From: Clostridiaceae bacterium
GTDB lineage: Bacteria; Bacillota; Clostridia; DSM-8532
Assembly (NCBI GenBank): GCA_012728015.1
Contig: JAAYFY010000046.1
Span: 1-64,000 of the forward strand
Reading direction: 5' to 3'
Length of the DNA stretch: 64,000 nt
Shown here: positions 17,956-38,652 of the stretch, piece by piece
Layout of the letters: every line of letters begins with the position of its first letter
How positions within the stretch are numbered: position 1 is the stretch's first letter
Translations under genes and position numbers: made by a program
Notes under the pieces: model-generated
What the model saw: only the letters and a program-made list of their open reading frames with translations
The model's database searches: none
What the model was told of the DNA's origin: nothing

Positions 17956-18396
17956 ATGGCTACAGAAACCAGGTTTCCCGTAAGGTATGCCGAAACCGAC
18001 CAGATGGGAATAGTGCACCATTCGGTCTATCCCGTATGGTTTGAATGCGGAAGGACAGAGCATATAAAAGCTTTCGGACTTCCCTACCATGAGCTTGAGA
18101 AGGCGGGAATCATGCTGCCTCTTATAAGGATGGGAGTGGAATACAAAAAACCTGTCCATTACGGGGACATGGTGGTGATCCGCACCAGCGTATCCGAAGC
18201 CACAAGGGTCAGGCTTGTTGTCTCTTACGAAGTGTATGCGGAGGGAGATCCTCAGCTTTGTGCCAGGGGTTTTACCGAGCATGCCTGGACTTCTTCTGAC
18301 CTTAAACCTGTTAATCTTTCAAAATATAATCCCGATATTTATGAAAGATTAAAGCCGATGTTTTGCGAAGCAACAGGAGTTAAACCCGAAGTATGA
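17956..18396 (+). CDS. YbgC/FadM-type acyl-CoA thioesterase
   Basis: 146-aa hot-dog-fold thioesterase of the 4-hydroxybenzoyl-CoA thioesterase group. The catalytic segment RYAETDQMGIVHHSVYPVWFE carries the conserved Asp. The substrate is probably a short or medium acyl-CoA; with pgsA next to it, a link to lipid metabolism is reasonable but inferred. Start: AAGGTGAG is 7 nt before the ATG at 17956; the in-frame GTG at 17944 lies inside that site. It overlaps the next gene by ATGA. Confidence 0.88.
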   Translation: MATETRFPVRYAETDQMGIVHHSVYPVWFECGRTEHIKAFGLPYHELEKAGIMLPLIRMGVEYKKPVHYGDMVVIRTSVSEATRVRLVVSYEVYAEGDPQLCARGFTEHAWTSSDLKPVNLSKYNPDIYERLKPMFCEATGVKPEV

Positions 18397-18929
18397 AAAC
18401 GTTATTCAGACATGTCCCGAATTTTCTTACGGTATTGAGACTGGCAGCGGTTCCGGTTTTCTACGTGCTGATGATGGACGACAAAAGGACTGCCGCGATA
18501 TGGGTATTTCTTTTTGCTGAATTCACCGATGTTCTCGACGGTATTATCGCAAGGAAATTCAATTTTATAACGCCTTTCGGCAAAATTGCCGATCCTGTCG
18601 CCGACAAGATGATGCAGCTTACGGCGCTGTTCGTTTTAGGCCGAAAGGATATGATTCCCCGCATCATACCTTACCTGGTCCTGTTCAAAGAGCTGTTCCT
18701 GCTGATTTCCGGGCTTTTCCTTATAAGAAAGAATATAGATATGTCATCCAAATGGTTTGGCAAGCTGACATCGGTTTTGTTCTTCATAGCGATCATGATG
18801 GCTTTCCTGGGCGTTCCCAGGAAGATTACCGATGTGATGCTGTGGATATGCGTAGGCATGGCTGTATTCGCATCCATCATGTATATCAGGAATTATTTTA
18901 TGCAGGTTGGGGAAAAGACTGAATCATAA
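18393..18929 (+). CDS. pgsA: CDP-alcohol phosphatidyltransferase, PgsA-like
   Basis: 178-aa membrane enzyme expected to transfer phosphatidyl groups from CDP-diacylglycerol to glycerol-3-phosphate. The full catalytic motif D-x2-DG-x2-AR-x8-G-x3-D-x3-D is visible in DVLDGIIARKFNFITPFG and KIADPVAD. About four to five hydrophobic helices follow. The start overlaps the thioesterase stop (ATGA). Bacillota often have more than one such enzyme, so phosphatidylglycerophosphate as product is likely rather than certain. Confidence 0.85.
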   Translation: MKTLFRHVPNFLTVLRLAAVPVFYVLMMDDKRTAAIWVFLFAEFTDVLDGIIARKFNFITPFGKIADPVADKMMQLTALFVLGRKDMIPRIIPYLVLFKELFLLISGLFLIRKNIDMSSKWFGKLTSVLFFIAIMMAFLGVPRKITDVMLWICVGMAVFASIMYIRNYFMQVGEKTES

Positions 18930-18963: not shown

Positions 18964-18986
18964 AAAGCGGGATTACATCCCGCTTT
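18964..18986. terminator. Bidirectional terminator between pgsA and the small-protein genes
   Basis: Inverted repeat AAGCGGGAT/ATCCCGCTT with a 3-nt TAC loop. T-rich sequence follows on the plus strand (TTTT) and on the minus strand (TCTTATTATTA). It serves both convergent transcripts. Confidence 0.8.
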
Positions 18987-18993
18987 TGGCTTA

Positions 18994-19116
18994 TTAATTG
19001 CAGCATCCGCCGCCAAACAGACCCCTGTCCCAGAACAGACAAAGGAATATAAGAATAAAGAACAGTACGGTGCAATCGCTTCCAAAACCGGTCTTTGCTC
19101 CCAAGACGTTATCCAT
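18994..19116 (-). CDS. 40-aa WDRG small membrane protein (copy 1)
   Basis: Tiny protein starting MDNVLGAKTGFGSDC, followed by one hydrophobic helix (VLFFILIFLCLF), then WDRG and a Gly/Cys-rich tail ending GGGCCN. AAGGAGGT lies 6 nt before the ATG, a perfect ribosome site that makes this a convincing gene despite its length. It is a clear paralogue of the neighbouring 36-aa ORF: both have a polar N-terminus with GFG/GLG, an acidic-Cys pair, an FxILFL-type helix and LFWDRG. Short hydrophobic peptides of this layout are common in spore-formers, so a spore-associated role is likely but inferred. Confidence 0.82.
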   Translation of the reverse strand: MDNVLGAKTGFGSDCTVLFFILIFLCLFWDRGLFGGGCCN

Positions 19117-19157
19117 AACGGCACCTCCTTCCGGGAAAAGTCAATTCACCAACCTCG

Positions 19158-19268
19158 TCAGCAGGGTGATATGTTGGAGCAGCCGCCCCTGTCCCAGAAA
19201 AGCAGCAGGAAAAGGATGATGAACATAAGGACTTCGCAATTGTCACCCAAACCTTTGAAGAATCCCAT
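19158..19268 (-). CDS. 36-aa WDRG small membrane protein (copy 2)
   Basis: Starts MGFFKGLGDNCEVL, continues as a single hydrophobic helix (MFIILFLLLF), then WDRGGC and a short tail ending SPC. GGGAGGT is 7 nt before the ATG. It lies 41 bp upstream of copy 1 in the same orientation, so the two probably form a two-gene unit ending at the 18964-18986 terminator. The shared LFWDRG motif and gene order indicate tandem duplication. No sporulation-sigma promoter could be assigned with confidence upstream. Confidence 0.82.
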   Translation of the reverse strand: MGFFKGLGDNCEVLMFIILFLLLFWDRGGCSNISPC

Positions 19269-19458
19269 ATAATTACCTCCCATGCCTTTTTGAACTCAAT
19301 ACATACTATTCCAATCCATACGAATGGGTTACAAGACAGGCCATGGATTAAGGGGCCTGGAAGCCCTAAAAACCCGATTGGTCCATACTTCCTGTTCTAT
19401 GTCCCGGGGCTGCTGAATAGGAATAGACTGTGGATCGGACATAATGGGGGAATTGTTT

Positions 19459-19941
19459 GTGAAAGACGGGTCATACAATTCGGGCAGCAACGCGAGGCAG
19501 TTCTTGAAAAGCCTGCTAAGATGTGTTGCCGTTTCATTCATCCTCACCTTTGTGATCCTTGTAATAGCGGCTGTTCTTCTTTGCTTTACCGATTTTCCCG
19601 AAAAATACACGCTGCCTTCGGCCATCGCGGCAACGGTGCTGGGTGTTCTTGCCGGAAGCAGCAAGTTTGCCGGGAGGAACCCGGAAAAGCGCATCATATC
19701 AGCATTGATACTGGCTGTCATCTATGCTGTTTTGGCCTATTTGACAGGATGCCTTATCCAGGGGAAGGTTATGATCAGCGGCAATACGGCGCTATTTACG
19801 GCTATCGTGCTGGTAACGGGGGCAATCGGAGGAATCCTGGCAGGCAGGGCAGGAAAGCCAGCCGGTAAATACAAGGGCGGTTCAGGCATGCTATCCCGCC
19901 GGTTCAAAAAGGGCGGATACAAACTTGGGAAAACCGGCTGA
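19459..19941 (+). CDS. TIGR04086-like four-helix membrane protein
   Basis: About 160-aa membrane protein with four predicted helices and a basic C-terminal tail (RRFKKGGYKLGKTG). The layout and the glycine-rich helices (AIAATVLGVLAGSSKFAG, GAIGGILAGRAG) resemble the TIGR04086 family, widespread in Clostridia and of unknown function. GTG at 19459 is preferred with GGGGGAA 6 nt upstream; an ATG five codons earlier (19444) is possible but lies inside that site. Confidence 0.72.
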   Translation: MKDGSYNSGSNARQFLKSLLRCVAVSFILTFVILVIAAVLLCFTDFPEKYTLPSAIAATVLGVLAGSSKFAGRNPEKRIISALILAVIYAVLAYLTGCLIQGKVMISGNTALFTAIVLVTGAIGGILAGRAGKPAGKYKGGSGMLSRRFKKGGYKLGKTG

Positions 19942-37170: not shown

Positions 37171-38652
37171 TCAGAGTATTATACATATCAATCCACCGCT
37201 GCCTTCATTGATGATCTTCTGCAGCGTTTCCTGAAGCTTCAGCTGGGCATCTTCCGGCATCCTGAAAAGCTTGTTCTGGAGGCCCTCTGAAATCAGCTCA
37301 TGGAGAGATTTTCCGAATATATTGGATTCCCAGAGTTTTTCCGGAGCACCCTCGAATTCCTTCAGGAGATAATTGACCAATTCCTCGGATTGCTTTTCTG
37401 AACCTACCAGAGGAGCGATTTCAGTTTCGATATCGGCCCGGATCATATGGATGGAAGGCGCGCTTCCCCTGAGTTTGATACCGAATCTGCTTCCCTGTCT
37501 TATGATTTCCGGGGGCTCCAGGGTCAGTTCATCGATACTGGGTGTTACAACGCCGTAACCCTTTGTTCTGACTTCAGAAAGGGCATTTGCTATTTTTGAG
37601 TATTCCGCCCTTATAGCCGACAATTCTTTCAGGACTGAGAACAGGCGCTGCTCACCATCGATTTCAAGGCCGGTTTCCTCTTTGACTACCTTAAAGAAAA
37701 GCCCGTCAGATGGCTTCATTTCCAGGCTGACCTCGCCTGTACCCATCTTGACATCCTGGATGGAAGTCTTGCTTAAAAAATCATATATGCCGAATCTTTC
37801 CGCCGCATCATATACATTCTGTACCGTTGACCTGTCCTGGAACGAATCCATGATTGCGTTGACCAAGTCTTTCCTGAGCCAGTGTTCGTTATCCAGGGAA
37901 AGGATCCAGCCGGGAAGATTGAAGCTGATTTCACGCACCGGGAAGTCAAGAAGAATACCGTTCATAACCCTGTTTATGGATTGTATGCCCAGATTGAGGC
38001 AGTCGACGGGGATGACCGGCTTGCTGTATTTTTTGCTTAATTCTTCGGCCATCGTTTTGACTTCGGCGCTTTCGGGGGATGTTGAGTTAAGCAGTACCAC
38101 AAAGGGCTTTCCTGAAGCCTTAAGCTCGTTGATTACCTGCTCTTCTGCTTCTTCATACTCTTCCCTGGGGATATTGGTAAAGGAACCGTCAGCTGTAACA
38201 AGTACTCCAATGGTGGAATGGTCGCTGATGACCTTTCTTGTACCAATGGCGGCCGCCTCCTCAAAGGGTATGTCATAATCATACCAGGGCGTCTTTACCA
38301 TTCTGGGCACTTCGCCTTCCATATGGCCGACGGCGCTCTTGACCATATAGCCAACGCAGTCCACGAGCCTGACCCGCATGTTTACGTTATCGTCCATGGT
38401 TACGGTAACCGCTTCATTGGGGACGAATTTTGGCTCGGTGGTCATAATCATCCGTCCTGATGCGCTCTGGGGTGTCTCATCCACGGCCCTTTCCCTGTCA
38501 TACGGGTTCTGAATATTCGGCAAGACCAGGGAATCCATAAAACGCTTGATAAAAGTTGATTTGCCGGTCCGGACCGGACCCACTACTCCTATGTATATAT
38601 CGCCCTTTGTCCTTTCCGCAATGTCGCTGTATATGCTGTACAAAGCTTCCAC
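37171..38652 (-). CDS. spoIVA: Stage IV sporulation protein A
   Basis: ATPase that polymerises into the basement layer of the spore coat. 493 aa from GTG 38652, matching the family length; AGGGGG is 7 nt upstream. The Walker A motif GPVRTGKSTF near the N-terminus, IMTTEPKFVPN, VRLVDCVGYMV and the C-terminus GGLICIIL are all characteristic. The upstream in-frame ATG at 38706 would add 18 residues not found in the family. Presence of this gene is good evidence that the organism forms endospores. Confidence 0.97.
   Translation of the reverse strand: MEALYSIYSDIAERTKGDIYIGVVGPVRTGKSTFIKRFMDSLVLPNIQNPYDRERAVDETPQSASGRMIMTTEPKFVPNEAVTVTMDDNVNMRVRLVDCVGYMVKSAVGHMEGEVPRMVKTPWYDYDIPFEEAAAIGTRKVISDHSTIGVLVTADGSFTNIPREEYEEAEEQVINELKASGKPFVVLLNSTSPESAEVKTMAEELSKKYSKPVIPVDCLNLGIQSINRVMNGILLDFPVREISFNLPGWILSLDNEHWLRKDLVNAIMDSFQDRSTVQNVYDAAERFGIYDFLSKTSIQDVKMGTGEVSLEMKPSDGLFFKVVKEETGLEIDGEQRLFSVLKELSAIRAEYSKIANALSEVRTKGYGVVTPSIDELTLEPPEIIRQGSRFGIKLRGSAPSIHMIRADIETEIAPLVGSEKQSEELVNYLLKEFEGAPEKLWESNIFGKSLHELISEGLQNKLFRMPEDAQLKLQETLQKIINEGSGGLICIIL

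Follow-up and report, generated by a model that had tools for sequence, protein, structure and literature searches.

Very short genes are usually missed by annotation, and the window analyzed here, a 64,000-nucleotide stretch of contig JAAYFY010000046.1 from a Clostridiaceae bacterium, poses the question of whether two of its short open reading frames (ORFs) are genes and, if so, what their products do. A first-pass annotation of this stretch described two tandem ORFs of 36 and 40 amino acids at 18994-19268 and considered them possibly spore-associated. Both were found exactly at these positions, in tandem on the minus strand with a gap of 41 bases, and are referred to as A and B.

19158..19268, minus strand: gene A, FIILFLLLF-type microprotein of 36 aa (MGFFKGLGDNCEVLMFIILFLLLFWDRGGCSNISPC)
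18994..19116, minus strand: gene B, FILIFLCLF-type microprotein of 40 aa (MDNVLGAKTGFGSDCTVLFFILIFLCLFWDRGLFGGGCCN)

A and B are probably small building parts of the outer layers of the spore, because they are real, conserved and paired and have a promoter of the late-sporulation type. The best single mechanism is a structural role in the spore envelope, in which A and B would assemble into heteromers, and we assign it a probability of roughly 0.6.

Two conserved genes and their family

Homologues were present in 29 of the 32 genomes of the GTDB family, with A and B together in nearly all of them. The ratio of non-synonymous to synonymous substitution rates (dN/dS) in the annotated frame was 0.16, 0.10 and 0.07 for A and 0.06, 0.11 and 0.13 for B in three genome groups, whereas codon analysis of the other two frames gave ratios mostly of about 1 or higher. 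The dN/dS check proposed in the first-pass annotation thus returned 0.06-0.16 in frame rather than values near 1. Because the ORFs recur in the family and synonymous changes dominate in the annotated frame only, they are not chance. Both have a ribosome-binding site.

19275..19281, minus strand: Shine-Dalgarno of A, GGGAGGT, strong; kept as GCATGGGAGGT in the g1 and g2 genomes
19122..19130, minus strand: Shine-Dalgarno of B, AAGGAGGTG, perfect; kept as GGAAGGAGGTGCC

These sites are kept in the f1 pairs; the site of B is perfect, as had been claimed for both ORFs, and that of A is strong. Purifying selection in frame and the kept ribosome-binding sites mark a protein-coding family, and it is practically certain that A and B are conserved genes.

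In a class-wide profile search, a check of the kind proposed earlier, 62 of the 291 Clostridia genomes sampled had members, with up to nine per genome. Outside the class, about 384 genomes of the same phylum, a GTDB phylum that need not include Bacilli, gave no match at E<=1e-4, and no further copies of A or B were detectable by the searches in the window's genome. The 90 distinct members have a median length of 37 residues and contain 9.7% Cys, 13.7% Gly and 14.6% Asn+Asp. Their core of 12 residues, [IV]L[FMW]FI[IL][ILV]FL[LC]LF, is nearly invariant and flanked by Cys, Gly and Asn/Asp; the wider pattern [VILT][LV][FMW]FI[IL][LIV]FL[LCIF][LI]F fits 89 members, six of its positions being fixed (L, F, I, F, L and F), and the remaining member is incomplete, its start having been misplaced close to the end of a contig. 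The LFWDRG motif, first described as invariant, is so in the window's genus only. Outside that genus, WD, FN, CN, YN, TN or others come after the core, and WDRG, found in 9 of the 90 members, was ruled out as the family signature. That signature is the 12-residue core together with Cys/Gly-rich tails. AlphaFold2 predicted one helix at residues 7-29 (mean predicted local distance difference test score 69, the core being more confident), and the hydrophobic stretch of 12-13 residues would be short for a normal membrane span.

The family has been overlooked by annotation, as had been supposed: Pfam, NCBIfam and PHROGs contain no model for it, and neither they nor PDB gave a convincing match. Neither A nor B hit any NCBIfam family at E<=10, and the YjcZ/Tiny_TM_bacill model (TIGR01732) matched neither of them, nor any of 34 members at E<=0.1. 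A Pfam match to EPV_E5 (E 0.02) was below the cut-off and was judged a composition artefact. The core peptides were not found in print in the literature searched. PHROGs gave only scattered single-member matches to unnamed PHROGs (best E 0.0085), and tblastn against phage and plasmid collections gave no match; a mobile or phage origin was rejected on these grounds. An RNA element was also rejected, with no Rfam match in the region. These negatives bear on the idea that A and B are type I toxins or bacteriocin-like peptides unrelated to sporulation. Tandem short hydrophobic peptides are typical of such toxins, but the missing Rfam and tblastn matches are joined by a conserved promoter of the sigma-K type and by a chromosomal position that is fixed across genera (adjoining TIGR04086, near pgsA or pfk), and we regard this idea as extremely improbable.

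The promoter upstream of A

Two elements upstream of A resemble a promoter of the mother-cell sigma factors.

19328..19334, minus strand: -35-like element of the AC type, sigma-K-like, TTGTAAC; kept upstream of A across the family
19300..19311, minus strand: -10-like element in the upstream footprint, GAATAGTATGTA; 17 nt from GTAAC to AATA

When the upstream regions were aligned, TGTAACCCAT-N-TGAATAGTATATATTGAG stood out as a block whose distance to A does not vary. A search for sporulation-sigma promoters across the homologues, as the first-pass annotation had advised, found GTAAC-N16-18-[CA]ATA at 28 of 38 homologous loci from many families compared with 2 of 178 neighbouring control genes (Fisher p 1.5e-24, the relatives not being independent); shuffles gave a mean of 0.24 per set. 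Some members have textbook sigma-K -10 boxes (GCATACTATA), one example being TGTAAC-N17-CATACTATA. The arrangement agrees with that of the sigma-K regulon (AC-type -35, 16-17 nt, CATAnnnTA-like -10), the window copy being off-consensus at the C and at the final A. The second genes of the distant members L057 and L058 each have their own copy of the motif. No sigma-A promoter was found by consensus scan. Of the intended yardsticks, YabG (sigma-K) is absent from the whole family, and the upstream alignment of small acid-soluble spore proteins (sigma-G) mixed different paralogues; nothing similar to A's promoter was seen in it.

The sigma-K consensus has been published as KCACM / GCATANNNTA (PMC3416734). 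In Clostridioides difficile, sigma-E and sigma-K have a common -10 box and differ in the -35, which is ATA for sigma-E and AC for sigma-K (PMC3789822). The spoIVA promoter in the window's lineage is of the ATA type (GAATATAT) and that of A of the AC type, so the two classes can be separated within the family. This bears on the possibility that sigma-E or another regulator, not sigma-K, reads the promoter of A, and that A and B function at an earlier stage of sporulation or under stress. The GAATA start, which departs from CATA, would fit such a regulator; the different -35 of spoIVA, and the AC-type -35 and spacing that A has in common with the gene described below, make it rather improbable.

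Within the genome (2.19 Mb), the exact element GTAAC-N16-GAATAGTATGTA precedes only two genes, A and one coat-like gene.

L151:1589-2236: CsxC/SipL-domain coat-like gene, 215 aa, with a Lys/Cys/Asp repeat tail

The 215-aa protein matched the SipL/SPOCS domain PF12673 (E 9e-8) and, with E 1e-13 though short of the curated cut-off, CsxC NF045794, and CsxC is an exosporium protein of Clostridium sporogenes (PMC4942563). The promoter of this gene was kept in 18 aligned genomes, the window's own included. The microprotein family was present in 48 of 177 spoIVA-positive and 3 of 60 spoIVA-negative good genomes (37 and 1, respectively, at E<=1e-5), counts that are uncorrected for phylogeny; two of the three spoIVA-negative exceptions were weak matches.

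The suggested spore association is therefore well supported for regulation, because the sigma-K-type promoter is conserved across many families and the same element precedes a coat-like gene in relatives. The near confinement of the family to spoIVA-bearing genomes, phylogeny uncorrected, agrees with it. We consider it likely that A and B are late mother-cell sporulation genes.

Some further upstream elements were observed. In the CsxC-like gene, the conserved promoter is long, and the sequence after it, CTTGTTCGAC, belongs to a near-palindrome. A near match to A's promoter (2 mismatches) lies upstream of a gene for a 146-aa protein of unknown family (L156:1500-2009), and a relaxed match upstream of a murD-like gene (L150/L155) seems to be coincidental. 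Elsewhere in the family, other genera (L064, L065, L069, L071, L030) have the invariant sequence TGTAACATCATTACG in the -35 region, with the look of an inverted repeat (GTAA-N5-TTAC); it is perhaps an activator site.

Subtype pairing and a model for the spore envelope

Tandem pairs of separate genes were scored for subtype (n=36, many of them from the window's own family and hence not independent). Thirty-five combined an FIILFLLLF-type with an FIL[IV]FLxLF-type protein, in both orders, and the odd pair, in L058, consisted of two FIILFLLLF-type proteins. Mixed pairs recurred in L057, L059, L061, L062, L067, L068, L076, L077, L079 and L085. Two ORFs left out of the count (L057:1090-1299 and L060:1474-1668) have two hydrophobic cores each and, by their sequence, appear to have arisen by natural fusion or by duplication within the microprotein. 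Two distinct subtypes are thus kept together, which suggests a hetero-oligomer of A- and B-type subunits.

We propose that sigma-K RNA polymerase transcribes A and B as one two-gene unit during late sporulation, in the mother cell. Their products belong to an uncatalogued family of single-helix microproteins of Clostridia, with a short invariant hydrophobic helix and tails rich in Cys, Gly, Asn and Asp. The FIILFLLLF and FIL[IV]FLxLF subtypes may pack via a conserved helix face into hetero-oligomers at a membrane or hydrophobic layer of the spore envelope, that is, the outer forespore membrane, the coat or the exosporium, where the tail cysteines could cross-link subunits with one another or with coat proteins rich in Cys.

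The size, the invariant helix and the mother-cell-type promoter would equally fit regulatory or morphogenetic mother-cell micro-peptides similar to CmpA and SpoVM, which, from the outer forespore membrane or that of the mother cell, would adjust the activity of a partner (a protease, channel or coat anchor) rather than form bulk structure. A near-invariant helix does suggest a specific partner, but the high Cys/Gly content of the tails, their divergence and the expansion to nine copies per genome look more structural, and we judge this alternative unlikely. Two small hydrophobic proteins under a joint late mother-cell-type promoter also recall a pore or holin-like pair that permeabilizes the mother cell or drives its late lysis; with no convincing PHROGs match, no endolysin nearby and a 12-13-residue core that is short for a pore, such a role is very improbable.

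Several observations weigh against the structural heteromer model. The window -10 is GAATAGTATG, with A for C of CATA and G for the final A, and 10 of the 38 loci are without the stricter GTAAC-N-ATA motif. Phylogeny confounds the co-occurrence with spoIVA. The family is missing from many spore formers and is therefore not essential to sporulation in general. Pairing is not universal, because in Lachnospiraceae-like genomes the locus holds only one gene, whose product has an extended N-terminus rich in Cys and Gly.

More tentatively, and with distinctly less confidence than in the structural role itself, a Clostridia-wide two-subunit micro-membrane system might build a disulfide-linked hydrophobic lattice in the spore envelope, with a near-invariant sigma-K promoter and lineage-specific expansion and fusion. 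Little is known of the outer spore layers in Clostridia, and both annotation and proteomics miss very short genes. With its invariant core, its matched pairs and its late promoter, the family supplies candidates for new spore parts that can be tested directly in many anaerobes, and A's promoter may help to find more late mother-cell genes.

Neighbouring genes and comparison with known systems

Downstream of B lies a convergent gene.

18964..18986, minus strand: terminator-like hairpin between B and the pgsA-like gene, 10 bp, -17.9 kcal/mol for 47 nt, z = -5.1
18393-18929, plus strand: pgsA-like gene, convergent to B

The terminator in common with pgsA that had been described was recovered as this hairpin (18986-18964), which is plausibly bidirectional for B and the pgsA-like gene. 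On the other side, a TIGR04086/DUF3792 membrane protein gene (19444-19941, plus strand) is divergent from A; its own upstream element, GTTCTATG-N-TGAATAG.., is likewise kept, with a -10 like sigma-E/K boxes. The same window contains spoIVA (37939-38640, minus strand), about 19 kb from A and B.

The tiny transmembrane sporulation proteins of Bacillus represented by YjcZ (TIGR01732) are tiny, Gly-rich, sporulation-linked and often multicopy. They resemble A and B as tiny Gly-rich proteins with a single hydrophobic helix, but the present family differs in its FFI..FL.LF core, its acid/Cys flanks and its paired subtypes, and was found here in Clostridia only. SpoVM and CmpA of Bacillus subtilis are mother-cell peptides of 26-37 aa that act at the forespore surface and belong to the sigma-E class. 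A and B are similar to them in size; no sequence match was found, and SpoVM and CmpA are unpaired and without Cys-rich tails. Exosporium proteins of the CdeC/CsxA type in clostridia are Cys-rich, late spore-surface candidates for structural arrays (PMC4942563), although they are much larger than A and B and are not single-helix membrane proteins. CsxC of C. sporogenes is likewise Cys-rich (PMC4942563). The CsxC/SipL-domain protein of the present lineage (NF045794, PF12673), at about 215 aa, is unrelated in sequence to the microproteins, but its gene carries the same rare promoter element as A.
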